Origin: Planctomycetota bacterium
Lineage (GTDB): Bacteria; Planctomycetota; Phycisphaerae; Phycisphaerales; SM1A02
NCBI GenBank assembly: GCA_022574595.1
Contig: JACZRS010000001.1
Location: 372,001 to 436,000, forward strand
Direction: 5' to 3'
Length of the DNA stretch: 64,000 nucleotides
Under the pieces are notes generated by a model that was not told where the DNA came from, searched no databases, and worked only from the letters and a program-made list of their open reading frames with translations. Shown here piece after piece: positions 4,927 through 61,348 of the stretch (positions are counted from its first letter, which is position 1; the number at the start of each line of letters is the position of its first letter). The translations under genes and the position numbers were made by a program.

Positions 4927-4960
4927 GAATCTTTATCTTTTCTGCACTAATGCCTTCTTT

Positions 4961-42316: not shown

Positions 42317-43513
42317 TTACGCTTTTGCTACGCAGGCTTTTTCGTTTATGAATGTCGTTACTGTACTTGCAACGTATTCCTGTTGCTCGATTGTTAGCTC
42401 GGGATAGATCGGCAGAGCTAGGGTTTCGTTGGCTGCGGCTTCGGAGTTGGGTAGATCGCCTTGGGAATATCCCAGGTAGGCAAAGCATTCTTGAAGATGA
42501 AGTGAAACTGGATAGTAAATCTCTGAGCCGATTTTCTTTTCTGTTAGCTGAGCGCGCAGATCATCACGAATTTCTGAAGGCACGCGAATTACATATTGAT
42601 TGTAAATATGTGTTGCAGATCCACTCGCTGGCTGAGGCGTTTTCAATGGGAAACCATCATCAGTCAATGGAGTAGCAGATGTTTTTGCACCGGCATCGGT
42701 AAACATCTTGTCATAACGAGCTGCATTTTCAGCGCGAGCTTTGTGCCAATCTGGTAGATGTCGCAGCTTTACGCGGAGGATTGCTGCTTGCATGGCATCG
42801 AGTCGTGAGTTTATGCCCACCATTTTGTGGTAATACTTTGGCTTAGATCCGTGCTGCCTTAGCTTGGCTAATTTCTCTGCAAGTTCTTCATCGTTGGTAG
42901 TGATAATTCCCGCATCGCCACATGCGCCCAGGTTTTTAGAAGGGAAGAAGCTGAAGCAGCCGATGTTTCCGCGAGAACCTGCGGGCTTGCCGGTTTCATC
43001 ACAAGCGCCGATGGCTTGTGCTGCATCTTCGATTAGTGGCACGCCTAGTTCATACGCCAACTTTAAGTAAGCAGTCATGTCCACGGTTTGGCCGAACAGA
43101 TGCACGGGCATGATGGCTTTTAAGCGTTTACATTTCGCAGCCGCTTGTCGAACGCAATTTAAATCCATGTTGTATGTAACAGGATCGATATCTGCATAGA
43201 CTGGTACTGCGCCAAGCCGGGCTATTGATCCGCCGGTTGCGAAGAAGGTATAGGCTGGGCAGATGATTTCATCGCCGGGTTTAATATCAATAGCCATGAA
43301 TGCAAGAAGCAAAGCATCAGAACCAGAAGCGCAGCCGATGGCAAACTTAGCATGGCAATATTGAGCGATTTCTTCTTCGAGGCTTTTAACCTCCGGCCCC
43401 ATGATGAACCACTGGCTTTCTAGCACTGCAGCGACAGCATCATCGACCTCGTTCTTGATTGTCGCATACTGAGCTTTTAGATCTAGTAGCGGTACTGTGA
43501 TTTGGCTAGCCAT
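42317..43513 (-). CDS. DegT/DnrJ/EryC1/StrS aminotransferase, WbpE-like
   Basis: 398 residues. PLP motifs of the family: ASGSDALLLAFMA, ICPAYTFFATGGSIARLG, PLIEDAAQAIGA (Asp holding the pyridine N) and SFFPSKNLGACGDAG with the Schiff-base Lys. Late HIYNQYVIRV and SLHLQECFAYLGY are typical. In WbpE-type pathways it aminates C3 of UDP-GlcNAc-3-keto-uronic acid using glutamate. It overlaps the acyltransferase gene by 8 bp and forms one operon with it and the oxidoreductase upstream. Confidence 0.88.
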   Translation of the reverse strand: MASQITVPLLDLKAQYATIKNEVDDAVAAVLESQWFIMGPEVKSLEEEIAQYCHAKFAIGCASGSDALLLAFMAIDIKPGDEIICPAYTFFATGGSIARLGAVPVYADIDPVTYNMDLNCVRQAAAKCKRLKAIMPVHLFGQTVDMTAYLKLAYELGVPLIEDAAQAIGACDETGKPAGSRGNIGCFSFFPSKNLGACGDAGIITTNDEELAEKLAKLRQHGSKPKYYHKMVGINSRLDAMQAAILRVKLRHLPDWHKARAENAARYDKMFTDAGAKTSATPLTDDGFPLKTPQPASGSATHIYNQYVIRVPSEIRDDLRAQLTEKKIGSEIYYPVSLHLQECFAYLGYSQGDLPNSEAAANETLALPIYPELTIEQQEYVASTVTTFINEKACVAKA

Positions 43514-44123
43514 GGCCTTGCACCTCTTTGAGCGGACTCACGCTTTCATTACTTTGTTGATACTCGTTGTTGCACGCTGGGCATGTGAATTGGTGAGTCC
43601 CAATATCCGGGAGCCTGATACCACATCTGCACATCCACCCGATGCGCTTAGCCGGCACTCCGACCACCAGAGCATAGTCCAGCACATCCTTTGCGACGAC
43701 CGCACCCGCTCCAACAAATGCAAATCGTCCTATTTCCACGGGACAGACGATTGTGGAGTTAGCCCCCATACTTGCGCCGCGTTTGACGAGGGTTTGTTGA
43801 TATTCGCCTCGCCTGATAATCTCGCTTCGGGGCGTTGACACATTTGTAAACACCATGGATGGGCCACAAAAAACATCGTCTTCAAGGATGACGCCGGTAT
43901 AAATCGAAACGTTGTTTTGTACTTTTACGTTATTGCCAAGGATGACATCAGGCGAGATCACGACGTTTTGGCCTATGTTGCACTTTAGGCCTAGTTTACT
44001 GTTTGCCATGATGTGCGAAAAATGCCAAATCTTCGTTCCTGCACCGATCTCGCAAGGCTCATCTACATAAGCCGACTCATGGACCGTTACATCCGGATGC
44101 TTTTGCTGGTCAAATCGAGACAT
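43506..44123 (-). CDS. WbpD-like left-handed beta-helix N-acetyltransferase
   Basis: 205 residues. Hexapeptide repeats run from IGAGTKIWHFSHIMANSKLG through IGQNVVISPDVILGNNVKVQ to VGAGAVVAKDVLDYALVVG. The segment FTNVSTPRSEIIRRGEYQQT is characteristic of WbpD/WlbB, which acetylate the 3-amino group of UDP-GlcNAc3NA. The end carries CRCG..(20)..CPACNNEY, a short Cys4 zinc-ribbon-like tail, seen in some homologues. It overlaps the neighbouring genes by 8 and 14 bp, so translation is coupled. Confidence 0.87.
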   Translation of the reverse strand: MSRFDQQKHPDVTVHESAYVDEPCEIGAGTKIWHFSHIMANSKLGLKCNIGQNVVISPDVILGNNVKVQNNVSIYTGVILEDDVFCGPSMVFTNVSTPRSEIIRRGEYQQTLVKRGASMGANSTIVCPVEIGRFAFVGAGAVVAKDVLDYALVVGVPAKRIGWMCRCGIRLPDIGTHQFTCPACNNEYQQSNESVSPLKEVQGHG

Positions 44124-45204
44124 GCGGCTGAGTAATAGTCTCTACTTTCGCAGTAGCGTCAGGATCCGCTTTGCCTGGAAGTGGTGTCGTTATTGTTTGC
44201 ATATCAGCGGTCAAACGAACCGGATTGCCGTTGGTGGATAATGATCTTTGAGCAGCGTGCAAGACTTGAAGCACGCGCAAACCGTTCTCGCCATCGGTTA
44301 GTGGGCGCTCATGTTTAGCAACACAGTTTACAAAATGCTCACACTCCTGACGCAGCGGTTCATCATCAGGGTATTGTACTTCGACTCCTTCACCCTTAAC
44401 TGGAACAGGTTGGCCTTGTTGCCAATCTACACGTTGGTCATAGAGAAGTAGTTTCTTATTCACATCATCGAAGCTGGCCATCTTTTTGGAACCAACCACG
44501 ACTAGTTTTTGTTCTTTATATGGGTGTAACCAGGAAACGAATACGTGCGATCGGATGCCGTTATCGAAAAGCAGTTGTGTAACGGTTACATCCGCGATAT
44601 TTGGCGAGACATAGCACCCACCAGTTGCGACGACTTCAAAGGGCATCGCACCGACGAGTCTTAGGATTACCGCAATATCATGTGGCGCGAACGACCAGAG
44701 TGCGTTTTCCTCGGTCCTGATTTTTCCCAGGTTTAAGCGATTGGAAATTATGTAATAAATTTTGCCCAGCTCACCGCTGGTGATTAATTCTCGCAGTTTA
44801 AGGATTGCAGGGTGATATTCCAGCAGGTGGCCAACCATCAGGATGCGATCAGCTAACTTTGCCTGTGCGACAAGATCCTGAGCATCATTAACTTGGACAG
44901 TTAAAGGCTTTTCTACAAATACATCCTTGCCGGCCGCAATCGCAGCAGAAGCAATGGAGTAATGCGTCTCCGCTGGCGTGGCGATCATCACCGCTTGGAT
45001 TTCGTGGTCTGCCAGTACCTGATCAAAGCTACTGAGTACCTTTGCATCAGGCGCAAGAGTACGGGCTTTTTTCTGCCCAGCTGGACTTGGGTCAACTACA
45101 GATCTCAAGCAGCCTATGGTATTGAGCGTTCGCACGATATTCCCGCCCCACGCCCCGCAACCGATCACAGCTATTTGCGGTTCATTATCCACAACCAACT
45201 CCAT
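44110..45204 (-). CDS. Gfo/Idh/MocA oxidoreductase, WbpB-like
   Basis: 364 residues. The NAD-binding start is IAVIGCGAWGGNIVRTLNTI; MIATPAETHYSIASAAIAAG and DVFVEKPLTVQVNDAQDLV carry the EKP motif; MVGHLLEYHPAILKL follows. In the WbpA-B-E-D series it oxidises C3 of UDP-GlcNAcA before transamination. First gene of the minus-strand trio; the 45205-45406 spacer to the divergent gene presumably holds its promoter. The assignment to the WbpB role leans on the two neighbours. Confidence 0.85.
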   Translation of the reverse strand: MELVVDNEPQIAVIGCGAWGGNIVRTLNTIGCLRSVVDPSPAGQKKARTLAPDAKVLSSFDQVLADHEIQAVMIATPAETHYSIASAAIAAGKDVFVEKPLTVQVNDAQDLVAQAKLADRILMVGHLLEYHPAILKLRELITSGELGKIYYIISNRLNLGKIRTEENALWSFAPHDIAVILRLVGAMPFEVVATGGCYVSPNIADVTVTQLLFDNGIRSHVFVSWLHPYKEQKLVVVGSKKMASFDDVNKKLLLYDQRVDWQQGQPVPVKGEGVEVQYPDDEPLRQECEHFVNCVAKHERPLTDGENGLRVLQVLHAAQRSLSTNGNPVRLTADMQTITTPLPGKADPDATAKVETITQPHVSI

Positions 45205-47279: not shown

Positions 47280-48212
47280 TCATGTATTAGCATTTTCAGG
47301 TAATACCTGCAAATTGTGGCTCATATAACCTAAGTCGTCCAAGAGATAGCCTGCAACTAGACAAAACTCATCAACTTGCTTTGCAGTCAGGTCTCGTTTC
47401 CATCTGCCTATGGTGTTTGCGTTAAGTCCTTTTGCAATTTGTTTGTGTGATAAGTGGCCATAGGGGTTTCGAAATAGTGACATGTCTTGCTCATGGAAAG
47501 ATAACATCTTAGGTGAATATTCGACTCCGATTATCTCACATACTTTGGTTAGTACTTGTTCTGGTTGGTATACAAGTTCTTCGTAAGAAATCTCAGTAGC
47601 ATGAACACCAGTTGCTAAAGCAAAATCACGGAAGTCGCTTAACATGCCTACCCATTCTTTAGCGACTGCAGTTGGATCGGTATCGAACTTTCCCGTGTTT
47701 AATCTGCTAGCAAGAATATCTCTTCCATCTCGGATCATGATGAAAAACTTTGCATGGGGATTTCGTTTGTGCAGTGCTCTGGGATCTACAGCAGCTTTCC
47801 CACCCCAGATTTTTTTCCCGAGGAGCTGCATTTTGTAGACCATTAGCATTTCGATGAGCTCAAGTCTTCCATCTAACGTGTCCAATTTCTTTTTTGCATC
47901 ATTAAACAAGCTAACCTGTTCAAGTACTTGCTGAACATCAAGCCCAGCTCTACAGGCGCGCCATATAAAGACTTGTAAGTTGCGATCTGCGAGTGCTCTA
48001 ATCCACGCGTCCTGATTACCATCAGCAGGACGAACATTTTTGAGTTCGTTAACTATAGCACCAGCTTCCATTGGCGTTCCTTTGGTATCTATCAGCCGAT
48101 CCTCGTAGATCTCGTAGGACATCGCCAATTCTGGATGTGCATCAAGCATCGTGACAAAAAGAGTTCCGCCACTTCGTCCAATAGGACGTAAAAATACAGG
48201 AGGCAAGTTCAT
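47280..48212 (-). CDS. Sulfotransferase-family protein
   Basis: 310 residues. N-terminal PAPS 5'-phosphosulfate loop FLRPIGRSGGTLFVTMLDAH, then the 3'-phosphate motif FFIMIRDGRDILASRLNTG with Arg and Ser. YEELVYQPEQVLTKVCEIIG and IGRWKRDLTAKQVDEFCLVA complete the family. No membrane segment. It probably sulfates a glycan made by this locus. It overlaps the upstream 673-residue gene by 4 bp and is paralogous to the sulfotransferase at 50227. Last gene of the operon. Confidence 0.8.
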   Translation of the reverse strand: MNLPPVFLRPIGRSGGTLFVTMLDAHPELAMSYEIYEDRLIDTKGTPMEAGAIVNELKNVRPADGNQDAWIRALADRNLQVFIWRACRAGLDVQQVLEQVSLFNDAKKKLDTLDGRLELIEMLMVYKMQLLGKKIWGGKAAVDPRALHKRNPHAKFFIMIRDGRDILASRLNTGKFDTDPTAVAKEWVGMLSDFRDFALATGVHATEISYEELVYQPEQVLTKVCEIIGVEYSPKMLSFHEQDMSLFRNPYGHLSHKQIAKGLNANTIGRWKRDLTAKQVDEFCLVAGYLLDDLGYMSHNLQVLPENANT

Positions 48213-50230
48213 CTTGGTAGTTTCCTTCTACACACAACAAACCAGTATTGTGAGAAGTTCTCGATTACGACATCCTGCCAGGATTCAAACAGATCAGCAA
48301 GACAATTTTGGTCAAACGACCAAAGATTTCCTTTTAATCCTATATTGTCTAAAGGCTCAAGATGTTTTCGCCAACTCGGGCGATGAACCGGATCCCACAT
48401 TGCTCCACGTCTAGGATGTGTATCATCGGGGAATCCAAATAGACCAACTCCATCATCCTTTACCAGATCGTAGCACGCGTCGATGGCTTTATGTGGTGAT
48501 TGAATATATGCAAGATCCATCAACAACACACCTGTAAAACGATTTCGCAATTGATCGGATGGATCGGTAATATCTGCAAGAATATGAGGCTCGTGAGTTG
48601 GATCTATATCCATCTCAATTACTTTAACATCTTGCGATAAGAAATCAGTGGTTTCTTTTCTGCGGTCTGGCGGCAGTGCACCAACATTTAAAATCTCGCC
48701 TTGCCTTGGTGTGTACCTATTTAGAAGTCGCCACCAGAAAACGCGAGGATCGCCATCCGCAGCAGGATACTCCCTGGTGAAAACTGCTTTACGCTGAGAT
48801 CGATGATTAGTGATCAATTTCTCAACTTCAGGCGTGGATTGGAAGTTTCGACTAATAGCTTTATCAGGCCCAGCGTGTGAAAGGCGTCCTTGTAATCTAT
48901 GTTGAATTCTATATTCCAGCCAACGATTTTGTTTGTTAGTTTCATTACTTATCCAGGTTTTTAGCTGTGGTGTAGATTGAACACCACGCTGGATCGCGTC
49001 GTCTATTACAAGCGGAGGGAAATCCCACGGCTCGTAACAGTTGGCATATTTGACCGGATGAATCCTAAAAAAGTGTAAGCCGGCATCAAGTTTTTCTACG
49101 CGCTGGCCTAATGGTGCTGGGCGGGCCGTGAAACCACCATCGCTGAACATTTTATTGATTGGTTTCCAAAGCTCAGCGTTTGTCCGATCCACACAAATGA
49201 TATTTGCTTCAGTCGGGGGATCAAGGCGGTGGTTCAAAACATTTCCGCCATGGTTTGTAAAGGTACGAATATCAAAGTGCTGTCTCAAAGAATCAACGTC
49301 AGCGATAAAGCACTCGGCTGCTTCGGCAAAAACTTCATTGCTGTAATCGCCAAAGCGATCTAGTCGCTGCACATTATTAAGTGCGTTGTTGTGATATCCT
49401 ATGCACCAGCCAGCAGCTTCAGCGCGCTTTAGAGCATCTAGATCAAGATCTTGAATATTATATTCATACCAGTCATGAGCTTGGTTGTGAATCATTATGG
49501 ATCCGCAAACGCCTAGTTTGATTAGTGGATCGATCAAGCGGACCATCGAATTTGGTCCGCCATCCACATCGAATTGAATTAGCGCGCGTTTTACTTTACC
49601 ACTGCATTTTCCATCGATGAGGTCGTGCCAGGTAATAAATCCGAACCCGCGATCTACAAGGCGTTTTATGCTATTTAGAAAATAGGTTTTGGGATCACGA
49701 TAAAAATCAGAGCATTCGTTGAATAGTGTAGGTGAGCCTTCATAAACAGGGGCACGGAACCAACGCGTTTGTTCGCCAACCGGATAAGATGGGGGGAAAG
49801 CCAAAGGATCGTTCATCATTCCCACGCCGTTGACATCACGATCTACTATCAACGATAGTCGATGCTCCCATTCACGCTGTTGCTGAATCTTGCGCGCTTG
49901 ATTTTTATCATGTACTTCTAAAGCCAAGCGTATCGACCAATCGGAGAAGTTATGCGATGTATCGCAAATATCCAGAGCAAAGCGAACACTTATTTCAAAT
50001 CGGCCAAGGTCAAGACCCTTTTTTAACACAAGCCGATTACTTGTTTGTCGTTGGCGAACCACTTCTCCTTTACCGATCTGAATGATCCTAAAGTCATAAA
50101 GTGCAGCATTTGGGGGATGTACTAGAACCTCTATAGTCTCTCCTTGAAGGTATTGCGCATCTGGTGTAGCCAAACGCACAAAAGGGCGAGAGGGATTTTC
50201 AATTTCTACAGCTGCGCTTGGCAAGTTCAA
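48209..50230 (-). CDS. Three-domain protein: beta-sandwich, NodB-like deacetylase, methyltransferase-like
   Basis: 673 residues. Residues about 12-105 look like a beta-sandwich (PFVRLATPDAQYLQGETIEV). Residues about 165-430 resemble a polysaccharide deacetylase: ALIQFDVDGGPNSMVRLIDP, GSIMIHNQAHDWYEY, WCIGYHNNALNNV and FTNHGGNV. The usual HxxxxH zinc pair is not intact. Residues about 520-670 read as a degraded Rossmann methyltransferase (ILNVGALPPDRRKETTDFL, VIEMDIDPTHEPHILADI, LVKDDGVGLFGFPDD). Coupled by 4-bp overlaps to the sulfotransferase genes on both sides. It is the second of three deacetylase-like proteins in this operon. Confidence 0.55.
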   Translation of the reverse strand: MNLPSAAVEIENPSRPFVRLATPDAQYLQGETIEVLVHPPNAALYDFRIIQIGKGEVVRQRQTSNRLVLKKGLDLGRFEISVRFALDICDTSHNFSDWSIRLALEVHDKNQARKIQQQREWEHRLSLIVDRDVNGVGMMNDPLAFPPSYPVGEQTRWFRAPVYEGSPTLFNECSDFYRDPKTYFLNSIKRLVDRGFGFITWHDLIDGKCSGKVKRALIQFDVDGGPNSMVRLIDPLIKLGVCGSIMIHNQAHDWYEYNIQDLDLDALKRAEAAGWCIGYHNNALNNVQRLDRFGDYSNEVFAEAAECFIADVDSLRQHFDIRTFTNHGGNVLNHRLDPPTEANIICVDRTNAELWKPINKMFSDGGFTARPAPLGQRVEKLDAGLHFFRIHPVKYANCYEPWDFPPLVIDDAIQRGVQSTPQLKTWISNETNKQNRWLEYRIQHRLQGRLSHAGPDKAISRNFQSTPEVEKLITNHRSQRKAVFTREYPAADGDPRVFWWRLLNRYTPRQGEILNVGALPPDRRKETTDFLSQDVKVIEMDIDPTHEPHILADITDPSDQLRNRFTGVLLMDLAYIQSPHKAIDACYDLVKDDGVGLFGFPDDTHPRRGAMWDPVHRPSWRKHLEPLDNIGLKGNLWSFDQNCLADLFESWQDVVIENFSQYWFVVCRRKLPR

Positions 50231-51129
50231 CTCCGTTTGTAACCGAAATCTACAAGTGCAGATCCAGCTACAGTTTCAAATTCATCTATTTCTGCAGCGC
50301 TAAGATCATTCTGCCAACGTCCTACACTCTGTGTATTGATTGGTTGATTCACTTGAGAAGCAGAAAGATGCCCGGTCTCTTTACGATAGATTGAAAGATC
50401 CTGAGTGTGGTAAGATAATAATCGGTCGTCCCATGGTAACTCTAGGAAATCCATCAGCTCTTTCAGTTCAGTTTCAGGTGATTTCGTCAGCCGCTCGTAA
50501 TGCACGAACCGCGCTCGAACATTATTTCCCTCTGAGAATTGTTGGAAATTCTGCGCTTGGGTAAACCAATTCTTTGCGATACTGGTAATCTGCTGATTAA
50601 AGTTACCAACATTTTTCCGTGATGCTGCGACGTCACGTCCATCACGTAGCATGTAAAGAAAATATGCGGAATCAGGATACAAATCCGATAATTCAGTGTA
50701 TACGGATGTGATCTTTACCCCCCAATGGTCCTTTTGTTCTCGCTGCATTTTCTCCAAAGCAATTTGTTCGATAAATCTCATGCGATCGGCAAAGGTTGAA
50801 AAATCATTTCCAGCATCAATGTGATTCTTAAGAATCTCTATCAGCACATCCGTTTCAAGCCCGCTACGAATTGTTCGAGCTGCAAATGTTCGTAGATTAC
50901 GATCTTTTATTTGAGTAGGCGCTGAGCGGGTTAAGCTGAATTTTCGATGCTTATTAATACCATCAAGCTCGGCTAAAAATTCTAAAGCCTGATTCTTGTT
51001 ATCGCTTTGAGGAGCAAGCAGATGCTGATATATCTCATAGCACATTGCAACCTGTGGATGTGCATCCAGAACGGTTGCCAATAGCGTTCCCCCAGATCTG
51101 CTTATACCTCGAACAAAAATCTGTTTCAT
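50227..51129 (-). CDS. Sulfotransferase-family protein
   Basis: 300 residues, paralogue of the 47280 gene: IFVRGISRSGGTLLATVLDA (5'-phosphosulfate loop), YFLYMLRDGRDVAASRKNVG (3'-phosphate motif), VHYERLTKSPETELKELMDF and SVGRWQNDLSAAEIDEFETV. The 4-bp overlap with the 673-residue gene shows coupling. Probably a PAPS-dependent sulfation step on the locus polysaccharide. The two sulfotransferases differ enough to have different acceptor positions. Confidence 0.8.
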   Translation of the reverse strand: MKQIFVRGISRSGGTLLATVLDAHPQVAMCYEIYQHLLAPQSDNKNQALEFLAELDGINKHRKFSLTRSAPTQIKDRNLRTFAARTIRSGLETDVLIEILKNHIDAGNDFSTFADRMRFIEQIALEKMQREQKDHWGVKITSVYTELSDLYPDSAYFLYMLRDGRDVAASRKNVGNFNQQITSIAKNWFTQAQNFQQFSEGNNVRARFVHYERLTKSPETELKELMDFLELPWDDRLLSYHTQDLSIYRKETGHLSASQVNQPINTQSVGRWQNDLSAAEIDEFETVAGSALVDFGYKRS

Positions 51130-51483: not shown

Positions 51484-52410
51484 TCATGAGATTAGGCGTG
51501 ATTGGTCACGCGGATTTGGGATCGAGTACTTTGAGCAGACTTGCTTGTACCACGCTTGCTCAGCAAGCATTAGATTCTGTTGCGGATCTACATTGTAACC
51601 CCATCTCTGCGGATGAATCAGGCAGAAATTTCGTGTGCCTGGTTTAAGTGAAGGCAGGAATTTACCAACAAGATCAAAGCCTTCAATACGCTTGGGATCT
51701 CGGGTTTTGCGAAGCCCTCCGTCACTCCAGCGCTTTGTGAATTTTGCTCCGTATCGATTGTAAACCCAGCGTAGATTTCCCTCGTACTCGGGAGGCATGG
51801 GCACATCCAGGTTGTGGATCTTTCTGCCGTCTCGCTCCACACCAACTCCTCCGTGCGGAACGACGAACTCGATGTCGTAAAGTTGACGAAGATGAAGGAC
51901 ATCCGAGCCATAGCGTTCGATCGCCTTCTTCACGTCGAAACCAGCCAGCGGCAACGCGTTCTGGTGATACCCAATTACAAACTCGCGTTTCTGAGCCTCC
52001 TGGAAAAACTCGTGATCGATCTCGTAGGGCGGGTCATCGCACACACTGGAATACCGATGCCGAAATATGAAAATGTTGGATCGAATACCGTATACCGCTT
52101 CCATCGCCACCATACGTTTTGTGAAGAACGGATGATTATCGACATCATGCTGAATCAGAAGATAGCGTTTGTTTGGGTCGCATACCGTCTTACTCCAGTT
52201 GATGAATTCCCGTTTATAGTTTGACCGGTAATTCCAATCATCACTGCCGTCGAAAAGGTCGCGGTAAGTGATGACCTCGATTTCCAAATCGATGAGACGC
52301 TGAAGAAACTCCTCATACCACTTAAGCGGGAAATTCGATATTGGCTCGTCTGAGATATGCTCAGGAGGAGAATAGATTTCAGCAGGATTGTATTTACTAT
52401 TAAATATCAT
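51484..52410 (-). CDS. NodB/polysaccharide deacetylase-like protein
   Basis: 308 residues. The first acidic motif is RYLLIQHDVDNHPFFTKRMV, followed by IRSNIFIFRHRYSSV, FVIGYHQNALPLAGF and FVVPHGGVGVERDG. These correspond to the (beta/alpha) barrel of carbohydrate esterase 4-like proteins, but the canonical HxxxxH after the first motif is replaced by single His residues, as in the related domain at 48209-50230. A catalytic role in removing N-acetyl groups is therefore uncertain. Its start is 62 bp from the stop of the 1311-residue gene. Confidence 0.6.
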   Translation of the reverse strand: MIFNSKYNPAEIYSPPEHISDEPISNFPLKWYEEFLQRLIDLEIEVITYRDLFDGSDDWNYRSNYKREFINWSKTVCDPNKRYLLIQHDVDNHPFFTKRMVAMEAVYGIRSNIFIFRHRYSSVCDDPPYEIDHEFFQEAQKREFVIGYHQNALPLAGFDVKKAIERYGSDVLHLRQLYDIEFVVPHGGVGVERDGRKIHNLDVPMPPEYEGNLRWVYNRYGAKFTKRWSDGGLRKTRDPKRIEGFDLVGKFLPSLKPGTRNFCLIHPQRWGYNVDPQQNLMLAEQAWYKQVCSKYSIPNPRDQSRLIS

Positions 52411-52472: not shown

Positions 52473-55400
52473 CTAATCGTCAAAATCTAAATCGTCCTCA
52501 TCATCTTGTATATCACCAAGCACGGACATGAATTCCTTTTTCCCAGTTGCTGATTCACTGAACTGATTATACCAGAGTTGATCACCGATTCCTCTTACAG
52601 CTGTTTCGTCCATGACTACCACAAGCGAAGCAACTGAGACTAGTGGTCCTTGTCCATTAAGTGAAACAAGTACTACTACACGATCAGACAAAGCATCCAA
52701 TATTCTTTTTCGCTCAGCTTCTTGGAGGCGAGCTAGAGGTTTCCAATCAAGTACTACGTATTTTCGCGAGCATATTAGTGCGGAAGACAAACATATCGCA
52801 TATCGACAAATAGGCGATAATCCCTCTACCACGGATTTGCAAAGTACTGTATCCATCCCCTTATGTAGATTTTGTATTTCGCTCAGTACACTCATACGCT
52901 TCAAAGCGGATTCCGCTTGCTTGATGTAGGTAGAGTCAGGTTTGATTTGGCCAGTAATTAACTCACAAATACGCAACTGCGGAATGTACTGCACATCACC
53001 ACAGTAAACAATATCCTGGACCAAACAGCGAGACTGTTTAGAATTGCCCATCAATTTTTTGCAGAAGTTACTCACATGATATGAATCGACATCTACTGCT
53101 CCTATGCATGCGATGACCTCTCCCACTTGCGGAGATGCACTATTCATTGATCCATCAAGCTTGGGCTCAATAGCTTTTATACACAAGGGTTTAGTGATGT
53201 CCTTTTCAGGAAGAGTTGAGGCAGTTGGAATGTCTATTGTTATAAATTCTTTTAGCCGTTTTATTTGTGGGGCAAATCTATTTAGAGCGATTACTAACGT
53301 TGCTAATATACTCATTCCTCCCATGACAAATCGTAACGCAACTAGATAAAACAATAAGTCAACCCACGCAACTTTATCTGCTGCTAAGAAAGAACCAAAC
53401 ACAATCAGCAGCACACACAAGATCACTCCATACAAGATATCCTGGAGCATAGCCATTTTGCGTTTTGATAAGATGATCTCTCTAAAAGAATCGATGGCAT
53501 CATGTGCGCTAGGATCGGATTGAAAGTGATCCGCCCATGAGGGTCGCAAGATCCCTGGATACTGTGTTTGTGATGCGAAATCCAGAATTTTCTGAAATGT
53601 ACGTGATCGAACTTGTCGCCTCTGCTCATAATCACGCGAGGCTATGGCAACCCCGCGATTAAGCATATAAAAAGGGATTGTGTATATCACGATTGCAGGT
53701 AATAGGAACAATGTTAGCTTTGAATTTAGCCAAAGCAGAATTATCGAAAATATGCAAAAGGTAATAAGCGGTACAGGTAAACGACCAAGTCTAAGCACAG
53801 ATCGCATCAGCATCATTGAGTCGCTCATCATTGCCTTACGGCTGGTCATCTTCATTCCGCCATTAGACCAAAGCGGTAATGAACGAGATTGTCCTGCTGC
53901 AATTACAGTAATCGCGCGATCAGAAGTTCGTTCCATCGCTCCTCGCGCCAACTTAAAAGTAAGGGCTTCAGCTGAGTAAGTTATTAAGCCTGTTGCAACT
54001 GCAAGTAAAAGAACACAACCACCCCATAGAGCTAGCGTTGAAAGGCTGGTATCTGATGGTATTTCATAACCGCGCACAATAATTGGTTTGTCTTCTGTTT
54101 GAGCTTTAACGAATATCATCAATAGCCCAAGTATCCCCAAACGAGTGATGACACTTGCGATACTAAAACTAATTATAATAAATGATAAACGCTTTGCGTT
54201 ACGCTTTAAATCAGCCAACATCCAAAAGAAAATATCGCAGAACATTCGAAACTTTTGCACTGCAATCGCAAGCTGAGCTCTCATTGATTTTAAAGCCATT
54301 TTGATTTGACCCCACATCGGATCAATTGCTGATTGATTCACCACTGGTTCTAGAATCTCCGTACTCTTTATGTTGTAACGAACATGATAGTTATCGCTTA
54401 ATGTTACCGCATTCACAAGAACTTTACTAAGCACGAATTGGTGTTCGGGCGATGCAAACCCAAGAAGTAGGCCTAACGCAAAATGATTGGCATCAGGATG
54501 GGTTGTAAACGAAAGATTCAACTGCTCAGAACCGCTTCGCAAGACAGCAAGTTGGCGCTTAAAGATCTGCCTGCCTCGTTTACAATAAAGCAGCAAAAAG
54601 ACTCGTACTGTCATCCCCGGATCAACTTTGAAATTCAACTGCACGCTGTAATAAACATTTGACTCGCTCTCGCAACCATCATCCTGCTTAACCTTGGCCC
54701 ATTTGCCACGACATAATAGTACATGTGCGTTTGAGTGCTTGTCATCAATTGTTGTGATGCTTAGGCCAGTATTTGTTGTAATACAATTCGTATGAACCGC
54801 AGAGACTAGCGGATCGTTGTTTGCTGCTAAATCCATTTGCAAGATTGGCTCTACAATTGACTCGTTGCAATCGCTTTTAATTTCAATATCTTTGAGATGT
54901 TTCGCTTGCGCATCTTTATCTATTTCATATCCCAACTCTTGCTGAACTTCGCCGCAGATTTGCCCAAACGCAGATTTGTATTGTTTATCCCACTGCTCAA
55001 AAGGTGGCATTGATGTGTTGCGATTAGGATCTATGTGCTTGGCAAATTCCTCCTGAGCAAGTAAAGGGTGAACGATTATCCCTAGTTCCCTTAATACTTC
55101 AGTGATATAGCCAAGATCGCTGACCATCTTTTCAAAGCTTATTCTACTATTTGTAGCTTTGATAGCAGTCTCTTGTGTCCAACGGACATACCAACACGCC
55201 CGTTCAAATTGGTTAAGCTTATCCCATTGCAAATTTGGAACAGCAAAATGTCTTCGATCAATCGGTGTGTCGTACCAACCTCGATTCAAAATCGAACGGA
55301 CAACATCCTTGGCATCTCTATGAAGATGAATAAATTCAACATTAGGCTCCTCTGCTTTTATGTAGTCAAGGAATGGTTGGATATAGACATTAGCTTCAAG

Positions 55401-56408
55401 TACATCGCCTCGAACAATCGCACGGTGATGAGCGAGGGCTTGGCGTATTAGTGCAGCCGCTATATGCTGCGATTCAACCAACTCCATAAAATCATCACTT
55501 GTACGTTTATCATGTTCATAACCATCCGGAACTCGCTTATTATTAAGTGTCCATTCATGCAACCCCCTGAATGATGTGGCATTTTCCACAAAATTTGCCA
55601 GCCATTTCGAGCCGCTTCTTGCAGTTGAAAGTGCGAAAATTATGCGTTTTTTGTCACGCCACCAATGTGGATGAACTAGTATTTGATGCCGCCCTGTTTT
55701 AAGGTCTTCTTCTAGTGGATCGCCTGTACGTGTCCACTTGCCCCCGGTATCCGACCAATAATTAGTATGAGGCACATGAACCGCATCGTAAGTCAAGCCA
55801 TGTGCTCTTAGGGATGATTGCCAAAGCTTTAGCTTACTTTTATCATCTCGGATTATCTGATGGTCTGCGGGATATTGTACTTGCCAATTTGCATCATCGA
55901 CTTTGATGCCTTCCGCAGACATCTCCCCTTCTGTGCTAGTTGGATCATTGCTGCGCAGCTCTTTCCATAACCAATAGTTGATAAATCTGTGTGTGTAACA
56001 AGCGGTATCCCCATGGGCGCTGGTTCCGACAATCTCTAAGCCGGACGACCTTAAATGTGTAAGCAATTCGCGAATGTGATTGTCAACGTCATCAATTTCG
56101 CCGTGCATCCATTGTGTTAGTACATTTAAGTGTAAACCTATTTCGTGACCATACTCTTGTAGCTGCCTGCATTTTAATAAAAATCGTGCATCGTCCCAAT
56201 ACTCATTTGTATGAAGCAGAAAATAAGTAGCGCGAATACCTCGCTCGTATTCATAGTGTGCCATTTCAAGCGCAAGATCAATGTCATGATCAATATCATG
56301 GCGAAGCGCGATCATGTTAGGATTGTCAGGCTGCTGCGCAAGCTCACGCATCGTTACTGATGATCCAATATGATCTAAATAACGAAAATATTGTTCCTTG
56401 ATACTCAT
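52473..56408 (-). CDS. Giant fusion: NodB-like deacetylase, sulfotransferase, beta-sandwich, degenerate ABC transporter
   Basis: 1311 residues. Domain 1, about 30-245: deacetylase-like, NMIALRHDIDHDIDLALEMA, YFLLHTNEYW, HEIGLHLNVL, HVPHTNYWSD. Domain 2, about 253-500: sulfotransferase with RIIFALSTARSGSKWLANFV (5' loop) and HLHRDAKDVVRSILNRGW (3'-phosphate motif). Domain 3, about 545-675: beta-sandwich resembling a carbohydrate-binding module. Domain 4, about 740-1045: five or six membrane helices with ABC-exporter-like spacing. Domain 5, about 1070-1280: NBD-like, but the Walker A place reads GEVIACIGAVDVDSYHV without GKS/T, the signature is GLSPICRYAICLSSALI and Walker B is YVVLDWKPL without Glu. 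ATP hydrolysis looks lost. An acidic tail (DDEDDLDFDD) ends it. Overlaps the GT4 gene by 4 bp. Confidence 0.7.
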   Translation of the reverse strand: MSIKEQYFRYLDHIGSSVTMRELAQQPDNPNMIALRHDIDHDIDLALEMAHYEYERGIRATYFLLHTNEYWDDARFLLKCRQLQEYGHEIGLHLNVLTQWMHGEIDDVDNHIRELLTHLRSSGLEIVGTSAHGDTACYTHRFINYWLWKELRSNDPTSTEGEMSAEGIKVDDANWQVQYPADHQIIRDDKSKLKLWQSSLRAHGLTYDAVHVPHTNYWSDTGGKWTRTGDPLEEDLKTGRHQILVHPHWWRDKKRIIFALSTARSGSKWLANFVENATSFRGLHEWTLNNKRVPDGYEHDKRTSDDFMELVESQHIAAALIRQALAHHRAIVRGDVLEANVYIQPFLDYIKAEEPNVEFIHLHRDAKDVVRSILNRGWYDTPIDRRHFAVPNLQWDKLNQFERACWYVRWTQETAIKATNSRISFEKMVSDLGYITEVLRELGIIVHPLLAQEEFAKHIDPNRNTSMPPFEQWDKQYKSAFGQICGEVQQELGYEIDKDAQAKHLKDIEIKSDCNESIVEPILQMDLAANNDPLVSAVHTNCITTNTGLSITTIDDKHSNAHVLLCRGKWAKVKQDDGCESESNVYYSVQLNFKVDPGMTVRVFLLLYCKRGRQIFKRQLAVLRSGSEQLNLSFTTHPDANHFALGLLLGFASPEHQFVLSKVLVNAVTLSDNYHVRYNIKSTEILEPVVNQSAIDPMWGQIKMALKSMRAQLAIAVQKFRMFCDIFFWMLADLKRNAKRLSFIIISFSIASVITRLGILGLLMIFVKAQTEDKPIIVRGYEIPSDTSLSTLALWGGCVLLLAVATGLITYSAEALTFKLARGAMERTSDRAITVIAAGQSRSLPLWSNGGMKMTSRKAMMSDSMMLMRSVLRLGRLPVPLITFCIFSIILLWLNSKLTLFLLPAIVIYTIPFYMLNRGVAIASRDYEQRRQVRSRTFQKILDFASQTQYPGILRPSWADHFQSDPSAHDAIDSFREIILSKRKMAMLQDILYGVILCVLLIVFGSFLAADKVAWVDLLFYLVALRFVMGGMSILATLVIALNRFAPQIKRLKEFITIDIPTASTLPEKDITKPLCIKAIEPKLDGSMNSASPQVGEVIACIGAVDVDSYHVSNFCKKLMGNSKQSRCLVQDIVYCGDVQYIPQLRICELITGQIKPDSTYIKQAESALKRMSVLSEIQNLHKGMDTVLCKSVVEGLSPICRYAICLSSALICSRKYVVLDWKPLARLQEAERKRILDALSDRVVVLVSLNGQGPLVSVASLVVVMDETAVRGIGDQLWYNQFSESATGKKEFMSVLGDIQDDEDDLDFDD

Positions 56409-58018
56409 GATGTGAGCAGTTGCGTTGTGGGAGTAGCCGACTGACTCTCAATTGGCGAGTTTTCAATCATGTTTTCGTGATTGCTCGGGGATCGTTCACC
56501 TAATAATTCACCAAAGATATTGCGAAGCTTTTTTTGTTCATGCTCCCAGTTCAATTTCTTTGCAGCATCAAAGCAATTTTGACGCATTATAGAATAATGG
56601 TCTTGATCCGCCAAGGCTTCATTAACTGCACTTGCGATTGTTCTTGGATTTGTTTCATCAAACAATACGCCTATATCATATTGTTCAACTAACAAGCGTT
56701 TTTCATAATGATCGCTCATTGCAAGTGGAACCCCAGCCATCATGCAATGGAAAATCTTGTTGCTTGATTCAAAGAAATAACTCAAACATACGTTTTGTGT
56801 AGGAACAATTCCCAGATCTGCAGATGAAACGTAACGTGTTACATGGTTGATTGGTACTGCTTCACGGAAGAATACTTTCGTTGACAATAAGCCTTGTTCA
56901 GAAGCGCGTGTTTTCAGCGATTGCAAATAAGCTGCGTTTCGTGCGTATCCCATGATGACATAAACAGAGTTTTCAAGATGTTCAGCTGAATCAATCATCG
57001 CTTCCAGGCCACGATTGATAGTTATGGCACCGGCATAGATAACTATCTTTTTGTCCTTAGGGATCTTTAACTCATCAGCAAGGATTGTGGTTTTCGGCTG
57101 AGGTGATTCATATGGTTGCACATTGCGAATAAGATACGGCTTTTTGATCTCGTATTGCTTGGCTAAGTGTTCGCAAATGCCATTTGCGACCGAAAGAACA
57201 GCATCGCATTTCCCAATGAACGCCCATTCAATTGGCGCCCAGATTATGTTATCTCTTGCACGTGATTTATTGCCTATGTTGCGCCTTAAATACAGTTCAT
57301 GTGAATCGTAAACCAGGTGTACGCCACTTAAGCGTTTCACCAGTGCCCCGCCAAGCAGCATATTCAGATCATGTGATTGAATTATGTCAGGTTCAAGGCT
57401 TAATGCCTTACGCGCAAATTGCAAGTTTAGTGCAACTAATCTGAGCGATGAAGGAGCAAGTCGTTTGATTATTCCAATGGCAAAATTAATGCATCGCCTT
57501 ATTAAGTGCACTGTTCTTCGAATGCTTCGTAGCTCAAGACGTGCGACTTTCATTACCATCCTTGCCACATGTCGAATCCCAGGCAGCTTCATTATTCCTT
57601 GATTGAAAGATGACAATATCTTTCGAGAAAACGTTCCTGATTCAAATTTTTGATCCTCAGCCCAATCTGCAGTCTTAGGAGATTTATATGTACCAAGTGC
57701 CAAGCGCGCAATCGGTTTGCACCACCAACCAAAAACAACTACACCCAGTCGCAGTACATCACCTGGTCTAAAGCAAAGTCGGTGGACCTGAATGGAGTCG
57801 TTGTCTTCTTCAAGCGGCAAAGCAGTGCCAGTCATTGCAAGAACGTGAACTTCGCATCCCCATTCGATGAGACTGCGCGCTTCTTTGTAAACGCGCGTGT
57901 CGTGCTCAAAGCTATTTGCCAACAGCATCACAATCCGTGGCCGACCCTTTTCAGACTGCTGAATTTGTTCTTGCAAAATAGTGGCTCCGATTAAATAGAC
58001 CAATTGCGGAGGCGTCAA
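56405..58018 (-). CDS. GT4 family glycosyltransferase
   Basis: 537 residues; an in-frame Met about 10-30 codons in could be the true start because RPRIVMLLANSFEHDTRVYK is the typical N-terminal strand. DIIQSHDLNMLLGGALVKRL is the first-domain acceptor loop, and VHLVYDSHELYLRRNIGN is typical of GT4 enzymes in exopolysaccharide clusters. Donor domain: KIVIYAGAITINRGLEAMID, SADLGIVPTQNVCLSYFFES and SNKIFHCMMAGVPLAMSD. A basic insertion (about 130-200) separates the halves. First gene of the operon, 36 bp from tRNA-Leu, overlapping the fusion gene as ATGA. Confidence 0.85.
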   Translation of the reverse strand: MTPPQLVYLIGATILQEQIQQSEKGRPRIVMLLANSFEHDTRVYKEARSLIEWGCEVHVLAMTGTALPLEEDNDSIQVHRLCFRPGDVLRLGVVVFGWWCKPIARLALGTYKSPKTADWAEDQKFESGTFSRKILSSFNQGIMKLPGIRHVARMVMKVARLELRSIRRTVHLIRRCINFAIGIIKRLAPSSLRLVALNLQFARKALSLEPDIIQSHDLNMLLGGALVKRLSGVHLVYDSHELYLRRNIGNKSRARDNIIWAPIEWAFIGKCDAVLSVANGICEHLAKQYEIKKPYLIRNVQPYESPQPKTTILADELKIPKDKKIVIYAGAITINRGLEAMIDSAEHLENSVYVIMGYARNAAYLQSLKTRASEQGLLSTKVFFREAVPINHVTRYVSSADLGIVPTQNVCLSYFFESSNKIFHCMMAGVPLAMSDHYEKRLLVEQYDIGVLFDETNPRTIASAVNEALADQDHYSIMRQNCFDAAKKLNWEHEQKKLRNIFGELLGERSPSNHENMIENSPIESQSATPTTQLLTS

Positions 58019-58506: not shown

Positions 58507-58983
58507 ATGAAGATGCGTTCACAGACTAAGGCAAGGCCAGCAATAAAGACTGCACCAACAGGCGGGACGTTCAACAAGGTTCGGTCTGATCATGCTTCTG
58601 AGACGGCTGAGGATTATGTAGAAGCTGTCTCGGATATTGTGCATAGGTACGGCGAGTGCAGAGTTCAGCATCTTGCGGACTTAATGGGTGTTTCGCACGT
58701 AACCATAAGCAGAGCAGTCGCTCGTTTGCAACAGCACCGCTTGGTAGTAACCGAGCCATATAAACCCATTCGTCTGACCGCAAAGGGTGAGCGATTGGCA
58801 GCAGAAAGTCGTCGTCGCCACGAGATCGTACTTTTATTCTTGCAAATGCTAGGCGTACCTGATGAGGAATCGCAGCGAGATGCGGAAGGTATTGAGCATC
58901 ATGTGGGCAAAGCGACCCTTAAATGTATGCAGCAATATATAGAGCGAAATGCAGACTCTAAACAAAGTAAAGGTACGCACTAA
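58507..58983 (+). CDS. mntR: MntR-like DtxR-family manganese-dependent regulator
   Basis: 158 residues. After a basic 30-residue lead comes the DtxR/MntR winged helix: EDYVEAVSDIVHRYGECRVQ, HLADLMGVSHVTISRAVARL (recognition helix), RLVVTEPYKPIRLTAKGERL. The dimerisation part RRRHEIVLLFLQMLG and RDAEGIEHHVGKATL holds the metal-binding Glu/His residues; its EGIEHHV is the MntR signature and there is no SH3-like third domain, as in MntR rather than DtxR/IdeR. A Mn(II)- or Fe(II)-activated repressor. AAGAGAGA precedes the ATG. The palindrome in its promoter is a likely operator. Confidence 0.85.
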   Translation: MKMRSQTKARPAIKTAPTGGTFNKVRSDHASETAEDYVEAVSDIVHRYGECRVQHLADLMGVSHVTISRAVARLQQHRLVVTEPYKPIRLTAKGERLAAESRRRHEIVLLFLQMLGVPDEESQRDAEGIEHHVGKATLKCMQQYIERNADSKQSKGTH

Positions 58984-59088
58984 TGAGTTTGCTAACTAGT
59001 GGAAGCGAATTCATCATGGAGCACAGCTGACAGTCAGCCGTGTCAAGTTGAACCATCAAACGGGAATACGGGTATAAGAGGCAGTTTA

Positions 59089-60387
59089 GTGGAAACACGT
59101 GACATCACCAACAATACCGTTCAATCAGCCGGCAGCGCCGATGCAGATAAGCGCGCGTCATTGCAACGCTTGACTCGCAGGGCGTTCCTAGGTTCGGGTG
59201 CCGTCGCCGGGACGGGCGTAGTGCTGACGGCACCGCTACTGCGAAACACCCCATCGGAGAGTCGCTCCGTGATCCTCGCTGACCACAGTGACTCGCACCA
59301 AGCGCATTCTGCAGACTCTCACAGGATGGGGACCGTGGGTACGATCGGCGAGGATCGGCAGCCGGTTCGTCCAATGCATTTTCTCGGGGCATTCAATGAA
59401 ACCGAATTCCCGGAGCTGCTGCCGAGCGATTTTCATCGGGAATCAAAGCTGCCCAATGGTACGACACTACACGAATACTTCTTTATTGCCTCGGACAAAG
59501 AAATTGAGATAGCTCCCGGCGTTTACTTCCCTGCCTGGACATACAACGGTCAAGTCCCTGCCCCAACGTTGCGGGCAACCAAAGGCGATCGAATTCGCAT
59601 CTGGTTCATCAACGAGGGTTCCCACCCGCACACGATTCACTTCCATGGTTGGCATCCGTTCGAACAGGATGGATCGATGTTGCACCAGTTCGTGTATCCA
59701 ACCACGAAGAAAGCTCTTGAGTACCCCTTCGGGCCGGGTGAGGATCCGACACCCTGGTTAAAAATGGATCCAATGAAAAGGCGTCGACAAGGCCTGGAGA
59801 TTTACGAATTCGAGGCCGATCCCGTCGGACTGCATCTGTACCACTGTCACTCCTTGCCACTGAAGCGCCACATACACAAGGGCCTGTACGGCACGTTCAT
59901 TGTGGATCCACCGGGAGGGAGACCAAAGATCGATCCCCACACGAATAAAGCTTTGCCACCAAACCATCCACTCCACGAAATGGTGATGGTGATGAACGGA
60001 TTCGACACGAACTTCGACGGTGACAACGAGGTCTACGCCATCAACTCGGTGGCGTTCCACTACCAGGTGAACCCGATCCCGGTACAGATCGGTGATCTGG
60101 TGCGCATATACCTGGTCAACATCACCGAGTTCGACCCGATCAACTCGTTCCATCTGCATGCGGGTTTCTTTCGCGTGTATCGGACCGGGACAAACCTGCG
60201 GTCCGACGAATACACCGACATGGCCATGTTCTGCCAGGGTGAACGCGCGATCCTGGAGATGCGTTTCCGCAAGGGCTGGCCGGGCAAGTATATGTTCCAC
60301 GCCCACCAGAGCGAGTTCGCCGAGCTGGGATGGATGGCGCTGTTCGATGCGCAGGAAAACGCGCAGGAAAGGGAGACGTCCGTATGA
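59089..60387 (+). CDS. Tat-exported multicopper oxidase
   Basis: 432 residues from GTG 59089, chosen so that the Tat signal (LTRRAFLGSGAVAGTGVVLT) falls at about residues 28-47; an in-frame GTG at 58999 would add 30 residues. Two cupredoxin domains carry the copper motifs HTIHFHGWHPF, LHLYHCHSLPLKRHIH, SFHLHAGFF and MFHAHQSEFAELGWM, so type 1 and the trinuclear cluster seem complete. The size fits small two-domain or related oxidases in metal operons. Likely periplasmic or outer-surface oxidation of Mn(II), Fe(II) or Cu(I). Its stop overlaps the next start (ATGA) and an mntR lies upstream. Much GC-richer than mntR. Confidence 0.88.
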   Translation: METRDITNNTVQSAGSADADKRASLQRLTRRAFLGSGAVAGTGVVLTAPLLRNTPSESRSVILADHSDSHQAHSADSHRMGTVGTIGEDRQPVRPMHFLGAFNETEFPELLPSDFHRESKLPNGTTLHEYFFIASDKEIEIAPGVYFPAWTYNGQVPAPTLRATKGDRIRIWFINEGSHPHTIHFHGWHPFEQDGSMLHQFVYPTTKKALEYPFGPGEDPTPWLKMDPMKRRRQGLEIYEFEADPVGLHLYHCHSLPLKRHIHKGLYGTFIVDPPGGRPKIDPHTNKALPPNHPLHEMVMVMNGFDTNFDGDNEVYAINSVAFHYQVNPIPVQIGDLVRIYLVNITEFDPINSFHLHAGFFRVYRTGTNLRSDEYTDMAMFCQGERAILEMRFRKGWPGKYMFHAHQSEFAELGWMALFDAQENAQERETSV

Positions 60388-61301
60388 CTGAGCAAGCTCA
60401 AATTTGGCGGTGCGTTCCCACGCTCGTTTTAGCGATACCTCTTCTTGCAGTTCGTGTAGTTGCAATCGGGCTAATGTTGAGTACTGGCTGCGACGCCTTT
60501 GCGCAACAGGGTGCGGAGGACAAGAGCGCTTATAACCTGTTCAACCCGACGCCGCGGCATCTGATGCGAGACCTCAGCGCCGATCGGCCGGACGTGACGG
60601 AAAGCCCGATCACCGTTGACGCTGGCCACATTCAGGTCGAACTGAGCTTCCTCGACTATCGCCACGACGATCGCAACAACAACAATACTGAATTCGAAGC
60701 GTGGACAGTCGGGGCGACGAACATCAAGTTTGGCCTGCTGCACAACGTCGATCTTCAATTCGTGTTCGATGCCTACACGGATGAGGACACTGACGACAAA
60801 GCCGCCGGCACCACCAGCAACGCCAAAGGGTTCAACGACATCCAGTTTCGGCTGAAAATAAACCTGTGGGGCAACGACGGCGGCGAAACCGCCTTCGCCG
60901 TGATGCCGTTCATCCAGTTGCCGGCTGGGTCGGACGAGTTGAGCAGCGATCATGTCCAAGGCGGGCTGATTTTTCCGTTCTCGACGGAGCTTAGCGAAGG
61001 GTGGGGCCTGGGGCTGATGGCGGAAGTCGATTGGGTGTTTGACGAAGACGATGACGATTACGACACCGAGTTTGTTCACACCGCAGTACTGGGCCACGAC
61101 ATCTTGGGGTCGCTAGGCGGATACGTCGAGTACGTCGGCATTATCAGTGGCGACGGCGACAGTGACTACCAGGCCCTGATCGGTACCGGCCTGACCTACA
61201 CGCTGAGCGACGACATGGTGCTGGACGTAGGAGCGAATTTCGGCGTGACGAAAGCAGCCGAGGACGTGAACTTGTTCGCAGGTATGACAGTGCGGTTCTG
61301 A
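60384..61301 (+). CDS. Phenol_MetA_deg-type outer-membrane barrel protein
   Basis: 305 residues from ATG 60384, overlapping the oxidase stop. Residues 12-40 are a signal peptide with hydrophobic core (LVLAIPLLAVRVVAIGLML) ending AFAQ. The mature start SADRPDVTESPITVDAGHIQ is the hallmark of the MetA-pathway/transporter barrel family, followed by alternating amphipathic strands (NIKFGLLHNVDLQFVFDAYT, GLGLMAEVDWVFDEDDDDYD) and a terminal aromatic VRF. Probably an outer-membrane channel. In this operon it may carry metal ions across the outer membrane, by inference from the ZIP gene that follows. Confidence 0.75.
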   Translation: MTEQAQIWRCVPTLVLAIPLLAVRVVAIGLMLSTGCDAFAQQGAEDKSAYNLFNPTPRHLMRDLSADRPDVTESPITVDAGHIQVELSFLDYRHDDRNNNNTEFEAWTVGATNIKFGLLHNVDLQFVFDAYTDEDTDDKAAGTTSNAKGFNDIQFRLKINLWGNDGGETAFAVMPFIQLPAGSDELSSDHVQGGLIFPFSTELSEGWGLGLMAEVDWVFDEDDDDYDTEFVHTAVLGHDILGSLGGYVEYVGIISGDGDSDYQALIGTGLTYTLSDDMVLDVGANFGVTKAAEDVNLFAGMTVRF

Positions 61302-61348
61302 GAAGGAGTGACGGTGACCAGACGGCTGGATAGATTAGGAGTGCAACG

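Follow-up and report, generated by a model that had tools for sequence, protein, structure and literature searches.

A predicted deacetylase-sulfotransferase and an ABC exporter-like protein without ATP-site motifs at one locus of a Planctomycetota bacterium

We analyzed a stretch of 64,000 nucleotides (the window) from a Planctomycetota bacterium of the Phycisphaerales (assembly GCA_022574595.1, contig JACZRS010000001.1, positions 372,001 to 436,000 of the forward strand), concentrating on an open reading frame (ORF) of 1311 codons at 52473-56408 on the minus strand. The genome that holds the window (G000; G and L numbers are our own labels for genomes and loci) is 96% complete and comprises 4.09 Mb in 31 contigs. 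The ORF is single and uninterrupted, and the plus-strand reading of the same interval contains many stops. From its N-terminus the predicted protein carries a NodB-like domain, a sulfotransferase domain of the type dependent on 3'-phosphoadenosine 5'-phosphosulfate (PAPS) and a beta-sandwich of carbohydrate-binding module (CBM) type, which we call part A, followed from M704 by the fold of an ATP-binding cassette (ABC) exporter and a short acidic tail, which we call part B (Table 1). An earlier note, made from the letters of the window alone, had described this as one protein of 1311 residues with an architecture not known from any described protein; the ORF is as described, but the fusion is not conserved, since its halves are separate genes in relatives. 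When the whole protein was compared with Pfam, only the sulfotransferase family PF13469 scored above its cut-off (30 bits against 27). The single-sequence query P0001 gave six matches in the PDB, the best at E 0.36 and one of them, at E 0.76, the nucleotide-binding domain (NBD) of MsbA, while a scan of genome contigs with P0001 alone gave six pattern-matching stretches, of which none was confirmed.

The model of part B (pLDDT 78, pTM 0.74) is a complete type IV ABC exporter, and the same fold was recovered over residues 18-594 of part B by Foldseek (E 7.8e-13) and by VIA (Z 15.0 to ABCB10). In an hhalign comparison of part B with intact exporters of other genomes (probability 98.7) both domains were aligned, with the lost motifs in register: GPNGSGKTTL of the intact exporters against GAVDVDSYHV for Walker A, LSGGQRQRI against LSPICRYAI for the signature, and ILILDEAT against YVVLDWKP for Walker B. 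The H-loop histidine of the intact exporters aligns with a leucine; in the window protein D-W stands at the D-E position of Walker B and S-L at the two candidate columns for the H-loop. The ABC exporter-like membrane part proposed in the earlier note is therefore borne out by three methods of comparison. General domain models recognize it poorly: the exporter models of NCBIfam match B proteins (part B and its relatives) only far below their cut-offs, and Pfam ABC_membrane stayed below its cut-off in the ten B proteins scanned, although the B protein of G087 passes when its pieces are summed.

The loss of Walker A, signature and Walker B residues, which had been read from the window protein alone, extends across the 27 B proteins counted. 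The lysine of Walker A was found in 0/27 (20 of the 27 have arginine there), the glycine at the sixth position in 0/27 and the pattern GxxxxGK[ST] in 0/27. Within the LSGGQ signature, the first glycine was kept in 0/26, the second in 1/26 and the glutamine in 0/26. An H-loop histidine occurred in 0/27 at either candidate column, with two proteins having a histidine one column earlier, and aspartate followed by glutamate at Walker B was present in 2/27. Taken over the five key ATP-site residues, 20 of the 27 proteins retain none and the other seven retain one, the glutamate. This count includes four partial ORFs (in L129, L047, L130 and L038). It omits duplicates of the same loci under contig names (L081-L084, L088, L097 and L103), truncated or partial copies in L125, L131, L050, L032 and L036, the proteins without an NBD, and the later-found L132-L134 and L118, which were examined for Walker A only; alignment A1 left out the fragments in L047 and L050. 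Judged from these motifs, the part B family is one of predicted ATPase-dead ABC exporters.

The remainder of the protein has its own pattern of conservation. The membrane domain was more alike than the NBD-like part in all five pairs of B proteins compared, which is the reverse of the intact exporters, where the NBD was the more alike of the two domains in 9/10 pairs. Residues conserved specifically in the family are W312, the sequence NRFYPQ at the end of the membrane domain and the arginine at the place of the Walker A lysine. Arginine is also the commonest residue at positions 119, 128, 162, 166, 275, 323, 341 and 348 of part B (15-21 of 25 sequences), although the window protein has M at 162 and I at 275.

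Members of the family have one, two or no pseudo-NBDs and usually the acidic tail. An 871-residue B protein from the metagenome-assembled genome (MAG) of a Denitrovibrio (G602, L134:1504-4119) has one membrane domain followed by two tandem pseudo-NBDs, with no Walker A in either, while B proteins of 410 residues in Halochromatium (L099) and 368 residues in a Phycisphaerales MAG (L104) have no NBD at all, and in more distant relatives (G046, G004 and G216) the membrane domain is followed only by a shorter stretch without matches. A maximum-likelihood tree built from the membrane domains placed nine intact exporters on one side (support 100/99) and 33 ATPase-less proteins on the other, with the eight proteins lacking a recognizable pseudo-NBD scattered among the latter, which corresponds to five changes, at least two of them forced by well supported branches. 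This split and this scatter fit a single loss of ATPase function and a repeated loss of the domain, i.e. ATP hydrolysis was probably lost once, in the ancestor of the B family. The 457-residue proteins of L087 and L093, which lack an NBD, fit the B profile no more closely than ordinary exporters, and are related to B through the tree and the locus only.

The tail is a hallmark of the family. Aspartate and glutamate account for 5-10 of the last 15 residues in 25 B proteins, for 3-9 in eight NBD-less proteins and for 0-4 in nine intact exporters. Among the 627 non-overlapping ORFs of at least 150 residues in the loci, 19 have at least eight acidic residues in their last 15, and all 19 are B proteins (14 distinct, five loci being present in duplicate). 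The tail persists where the NBD is gone, e.g. as DDEE in L099. At a guess, it might occupy an arginine-lined site.

Part A gave a confident AlphaFold model (pLDDT 88, pTM 0.85), and 21 part A proteins, some of them partial, align well. As one profile against the PDB it found no clear relative by sequence, and no NCBIfam model matches it. In the NodB-like domain, D38, D40, H88, H93, H132, D220 and H246 are invariant in 16/16 aligned sequences, the window included. They contain, in order, what we take to be the Asp-His-His metal site and the LxH motif of the CE4/NodB enzymes (D38/D40, H88/H93 and L244xH246, in 16/16, as a sequence pattern). Against the PDB, the domain profile scored best with a polysaccharide deacetylase (E 0.078). 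Pfam gave no match for the window domain at E up to 1, and PF01522 reached 18.4 and 14.9 bits in relatives from L107 and L108, under its cut-off of 23.1 bits. The NodB-like domain proposed from the letters thus keeps its motif residues, without a Pfam match. Both other domains proposed for this half were recovered: the sulfotransferase domain, in addition to its Pfam match, resembles 4gox (VIA Z 14.7) and TPST1 (Z 14.5) and has R264, G266, W269, R364 and S372 invariant in the part A alignment A3, and the beta-sandwich resembles the CBM 4mgs (VIA Z 14.0) and CBM29 and CBM22 chains (about 13), with Eph receptor domains scoring about equally. The catalytic residues of part A are invariant across several phyla. 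Inspection by eye showed no signal peptide, in keeping with the use of PAPS in the cytosol.

A scan of named genomes for part A gave 29 loci, of which 21 match at least 450 residues. The nearest named relatives are Planctomycetota, Phycisphaerales among them. Their records belong to Phycisphaerales, other Planctomycetota, Candidatus Brocadia, Thermodesulfovibrionia and Denitrovibrio, and further to Hyphomicrobiales, Halochromatium glycolicum, a Rhodobacteraceae MAG, a Methylophilaceae chromosome, a Verrucomicrobia MAG and a Coleofasciculus MAG. The last two are possibly misbinned. The Verrucomicrobia locus (L103) and one from a Planctomycetota MAG (L088) have the same ORF lengths and nearly equal scores, and such near identity suggests a binning error in one of them. 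Halochromatium glycolicum also encodes a fusion in the reverse order (L099:13812-15836), with a sulfotransferase at residues 99-323 and a NodB-like domain at 457-672.

Table 1. Features of the 1311-codon ORF and of its neighbors, in window coordinates
Feature	Coordinates	Strand	Basis
NodB-like (polysaccharide deacetylase-like) domain, residues 1-250, motifs RHDxD, GHEIGLH and LxH	55659..56408	-	invariant residues, weak profile match, confident model
PAPS-dependent sulfotransferase domain, residues 253-499	54912..55652	-	PF13469, VIA, invariant residues
Beta-sandwich of CBM type, residues 516-670	54399..54863	-	VIA
A-B junction, residues 682-703	54300..54365	-	no clear homology; A stop and B start of G065 fall here, with TGATG overlap
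Six-helix ABC exporter membrane domain, residues 704-1060	53229..54299	-	model, Foldseek, VIA, hhalign
Pseudo-NBD, residues 1072-1295, ATP-site motifs lost	52524..53195	-	matches to NBDs of CFTR, TM287 and TAP1; motif counts
Acidic C-terminal tail, residues 1296-1311, family hallmark	52476..52523	-	D/E counts
GT4-type glycosyltransferase, upstream, overlapping part A by 4 bases	56405..58018	-	Pfam, ORF clusters
NodB-like protein (QHDVDNHP)	51484..52410	-	by eye; matched by neither Pfam nor NCBIfam; clusters with part A in single-linkage BLAST
Sulfotransferase	50227..51129	-	PF13469, 68 bits
673-residue protein, NodB-like motif (QFDVDGGP) and methyltransferase-like C-terminal part	48209..50230	-	both by eye; no Pfam or NCBIfam match
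Sulfotransferase	47280..48212	-	PF13469, 53 bits
Sugar-nucleotide trio: DegT aminotransferase, hexapeptide acetyltransferase, Gfo/Idh oxidoreductase	42317..45204	-	Pfam

Kinds of gene present around the ORF (Table 1) recur near B genes of other loci. Within 10 kb of B, 22 of 27 loci have a sulfotransferase, 20 have a glycosyltransferase and 13 have a NodB-like gene, compared with 1, 0 and 0 in 20 control windows drawn from 12 genomes, including one without a B match (G018). Some loci match by construction, because genes of the window, L120 and L126 had supplied the generic sulfotransferase profile, genes of the window, L120, L126 and L099 the glycosyltransferase profile, and rows of part A both the NodB profile and a second one for sulfotransferases. 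Several loci had moreover been chosen because of part A, and the 17 B loci without part A were therefore counted separately: 12 of them have a sulfotransferase. The glycan-modification setting seen in the earlier note is borne out, and its linking of the fused protein to glycan export or flipping is a reasonable guess. A GT4-type glycosyltransferase adjoins A in G065, G030 and G513 as well as in the window. The single contig of G513 reads, in order, oxidoreductase, acetyltransferase, sulfotransferase, two unassigned ORFs, methyltransferase, B, A, two glycosyltransferases and an initiating sugar transferase. The most telling locus is one of Denitrovibrio (L094, on the same contig as L134), which has, at 1276-5676, genes for an adenosine 5'-phosphosulfate (APS) kinase, a protein of the PAPS-reductase family, which by its position we name CysD-type, a GTPase-APS kinase fusion (CysNC type) and an inositol-phosphatase-family protein that we name CysQ type; these are followed by a glycosyltransferase, A, two sulfotransferases, an asparagine synthase-like gene, a methyltransferase and B. 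Genes for the supply of the sulfate donor thus share a stretch of 22 kb with A and B, which fits the use of PAPS. In G469, B lies among four sulfotransferases and glycosyltransferases. A flagellin gene (L120:3613-4509) lies about 5 kb from this B and its sulfotransferases, and a sulfated flagellin glycan is conceivable in this genome.

From the computed domain content, folds, family-wide motif loss, tail and locus association, we infer the enzymatic activities, the substrate and the direction and possible transport of the system. We think it probable that A and B are normally neighbors in a sulfated-glycan locus, where A would be a soluble cytosolic deacetylase/sulfotransferase and B its ATP-independent membrane partner, acting by transport or by docking. 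The NodB-like domain of A would remove an acyl group, probably N-acetyl, from a glycan, the sulfotransferase domain would add sulfate from PAPS, and the CBM-like domain would hold the sugar chain, with all of this taking place in the cytosol on a lipid-linked glycan. B would descend from an ATP-driven exporter that lost ATP hydrolysis and, later and in several lineages, the NBD itself; on the inner side of the membrane it would handle the sulfated lipid-linked glycan without ATP, either carrying it across (our first choice) or docking the enzymes, and its acidic tail may regulate this handling. Our preference for transport comes from the higher conservation of the membrane domain and from the absence of any nearby flippase or exporter of the families tested, although for transport of the sulfated glycan by B we would give slightly less than an even chance.

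Several results weigh against this proposal. Transport by B without ATP needs another driving force, and no conserved glutamate was seen among the columns of the B membrane domain conserved at 55% or more. B often occurs without A, and A without B, in one locus; 5/27 B loci have no sulfotransferase match and 3/27 lack all three gene types. The assignment of the first domain of A as NodB-like, which draws on motifs and weak profile matches, is the weaker part of the domain reading. The membrane-domain tree is unrooted, its intact set is small (n = 9) and was chosen by match to the B profile or by nearness, and its long branches call for caution.

The main alternative is that B moves nothing and is a membrane anchor or scaffold that holds sulfotransferases and NodB enzymes, i.e. 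docking only. The lost ATP site, the faster divergence and occasional absence of the NBD-like part, the neighboring modifying enzymes and the fusion to one of them in the window all suit an anchor, but the membrane domain is better conserved than the rest and keeps the full six-helix exporter fold, which is beyond the needs of an anchor, and we regard this explanation as rather unlikely. It is a good deal less likely still that B serves as the inactive subunit of a heterodimeric ABC exporter, paired with an intact one encoded elsewhere. Exporters with one degenerate site are common according to the review PMC7756269, and two further matches to ABC exporters are present in G000 (contigs C31 and C18). 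However, B lacks both Walker A and the signature, so neither composite site would be complete; relatives without any NBD exist; and the B loci scanned contain no ABC ATPase. That search found no ORF with a Walker A and an ABC signature in the B-holding loci, also with a wider pattern covering Wzt-type ATPases (L049 has one such ORF but no B). In 12 genomes and as far as the contigs reach, no other ABC exporter (PF00664) scored above its cut-off within 70 kb of B, the nearest being about 72 kb away (G030), and the nearest Wzx-type flippase (PF13440, PF01943) was a partial one at about 29 kb (G009). The intact ABC partner that the earlier note had envisaged was therefore not found near the gene; short contigs limit the view, above all in G065, G087 and G020, not every ORF of the loci was annotated, and an unrecognized transporter in the B loci is possible. 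A decaying pseudogene family without function, which the lost motifs and a truncated copy in G087 might indicate, is very improbable: full-length ORFs occur in many genomes of different phyla, and both the tail and the family-specific residues (W312, NRFYPQ and the arginine in Walker A) are conserved.

A separate question, which concerns only the join and is compatible with A and B acting as neighboring partners in a sulfated-glycan locus, is whether the 1311-residue fusion is an assembly or sequencing error, i.e. a one-base indel near the junction that masks the stop of A. In a search of 151 genomes, its own included, long matches outside the window fell into two sets of rows, one spanning residues 1 to about 680 and the other about 704 to 1308. 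In the closest relative (G065) A and B are two genes whose stop and start overlap as TGATG, and BLAST pairs M704 of the window protein with the methionine that starts B there. A and B are also separate genes of one locus in G020, G030, G005, G088 and G513 and in named loci, e.g. L087, L096 and L099; none of the other part A ORFs examined continues into B, and in the loci read outside the window the two were always separate. Tight gene overlaps are the local style, since other genes of the window cluster also overlap by four bases (56405/56408, 50227/50230 and 48209/48212). Because the TGATG overlap places the A and B frames of G065 one apart, a one-base shift is required to join A to B. Each of the other two frames is closed by a stop no more than about ten codons from M704, a codon with runs of four A next to it, so that a homopolymer error in the assembly is possible. 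Against an error, the ORF is open along its whole length, and the Pfam domains of the other window genes are mostly near full length, so that no general excess of indels is evident, but a genuine indel would look identical. We put an error at only just short of an even chance. That a frame error might have joined separate genes had been foreseen in the earlier note: of the two parts of that condition, the separate genes were found, in G065 with their overlap. The fusion is local, without conserved architecture; a one-base indel, genuine or from assembly error, could have joined the halves, and this single local event or assembly error is unnecessary for function. Two further irregular copies of B were seen after part A. 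In G087, A is followed by a truncated B (L032:3795-4157) whose first 60 or so codons pass straight into a stretch resembling the beta-sandwich of part A, by deletion, recombination or misassembly. In G005, a 147-residue ORF directly after part A (L036:2659-3102) matches only the pseudo-NBD end and acidic tail, and a full B lies elsewhere in the locus.

B can be compared with several described kinds of ABC protein. With the type IV exporters MsbA, BmrA, ABCB10 and PCAT1 it shares the full fold, membrane domain and NBD in one chain, but the 27 B proteins are without ATP-site motifs, B has the acidic tail, and its NBD is sometimes absent or doubled. Degenerate-site exporters (TM287/288, TmrAB and Pdr5) have likewise lost catalytic residues in an NBD; in these, according to PMC7756269, one site stays canonical, and ABCG5/G8 is a case with lysine to arginine in Walker A, whereas B is without Walker A and signature and no intact partner was found in its loci. 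SbmA/BacA of the SLiPT class, which PMC13316013 describes as an ABC-type membrane domain driven by protons through a glutamate ladder, resembles B in having such a membrane domain without an ATPase, but no glutamate ladder was seen in B, most B proteins keep a pseudo-NBD, and the setting is glycan sulfation rather than peptide import. Membership of the window B in the SLiPT class was considered and given little weight, as the window protein keeps an NBD-like domain and no glutamate occurs among the membrane-domain columns conserved at 55% or more; some of its relatives are without an NBD. Since single degenerate ABC sites and NBD-free ABC-type carriers are already known, the B family is not categorically new. 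Among the titles and abstract openings of open-licence papers on bacterial N-deacetylase/N-sulfotransferase (NDST), ATPase-dead ABC proteins and sulfated-glycan loci of planctomycetes and anammox bacteria, we found no description of A or of family B. ABC exporters are textbook ATP machines, and here a multi-phylum family keeps their shape without the ATP-site motifs; its stages, from pseudo-ATPase to no ATPase, offer a natural experiment on the conversion of a primary transporter.

Part A can be compared with animal NDST, in whose structure (PMC10864358) a non-catalytic domain at the N-terminus precedes a deacetylase, which has a His-His-Asp triad, and a sulfotransferase. Both have a deacetylase (in A assigned by motifs) followed by a PAPS sulfotransferase and an accessory non-catalytic domain in one chain, but the accessory domain of A is a C-terminal CBM-like sandwich where that of NDST is an N-terminal Rossmann-like domain, and part A is bacterial. 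NDST was not among the sequence or structure matches listed for part A, where sulfotransferase and CBM chains fill the structure lists, and the likeness is at most one of analogy. A 2026 paper (PMC13353177) describes an artificial NDST built in E. coli by joining a deacetylase domain to a sulfotransferase domain; it is man-made, whereas in part A a fusion along these general lines occurs naturally. The same source names active expression of the natural enzyme in bacteria as a key bottleneck for heparin biosynthesis, and part A could be a natural bacterial counterpart. Taken together, A might be a natural bacterial N-deacetylase/N-sulfotransferase and B a new class of carrier, in which ATP was given up once, the motor domain was dropped repeatedly and another force moves sulfated lipid-linked glycans, with membrane arginines holding the anionic sugar and the tail mimicking the sulfated substrate and plugging the empty site; this full combination we consider unlikely, less so than the heterodimer but more so than the anchor. 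Elsewhere in the window, on the plus strand at 58507-62979, a metal-dependent regulator, a multicopper oxidase, a ZIP-like transporter and a cupredoxin were recognized by eye in a row.

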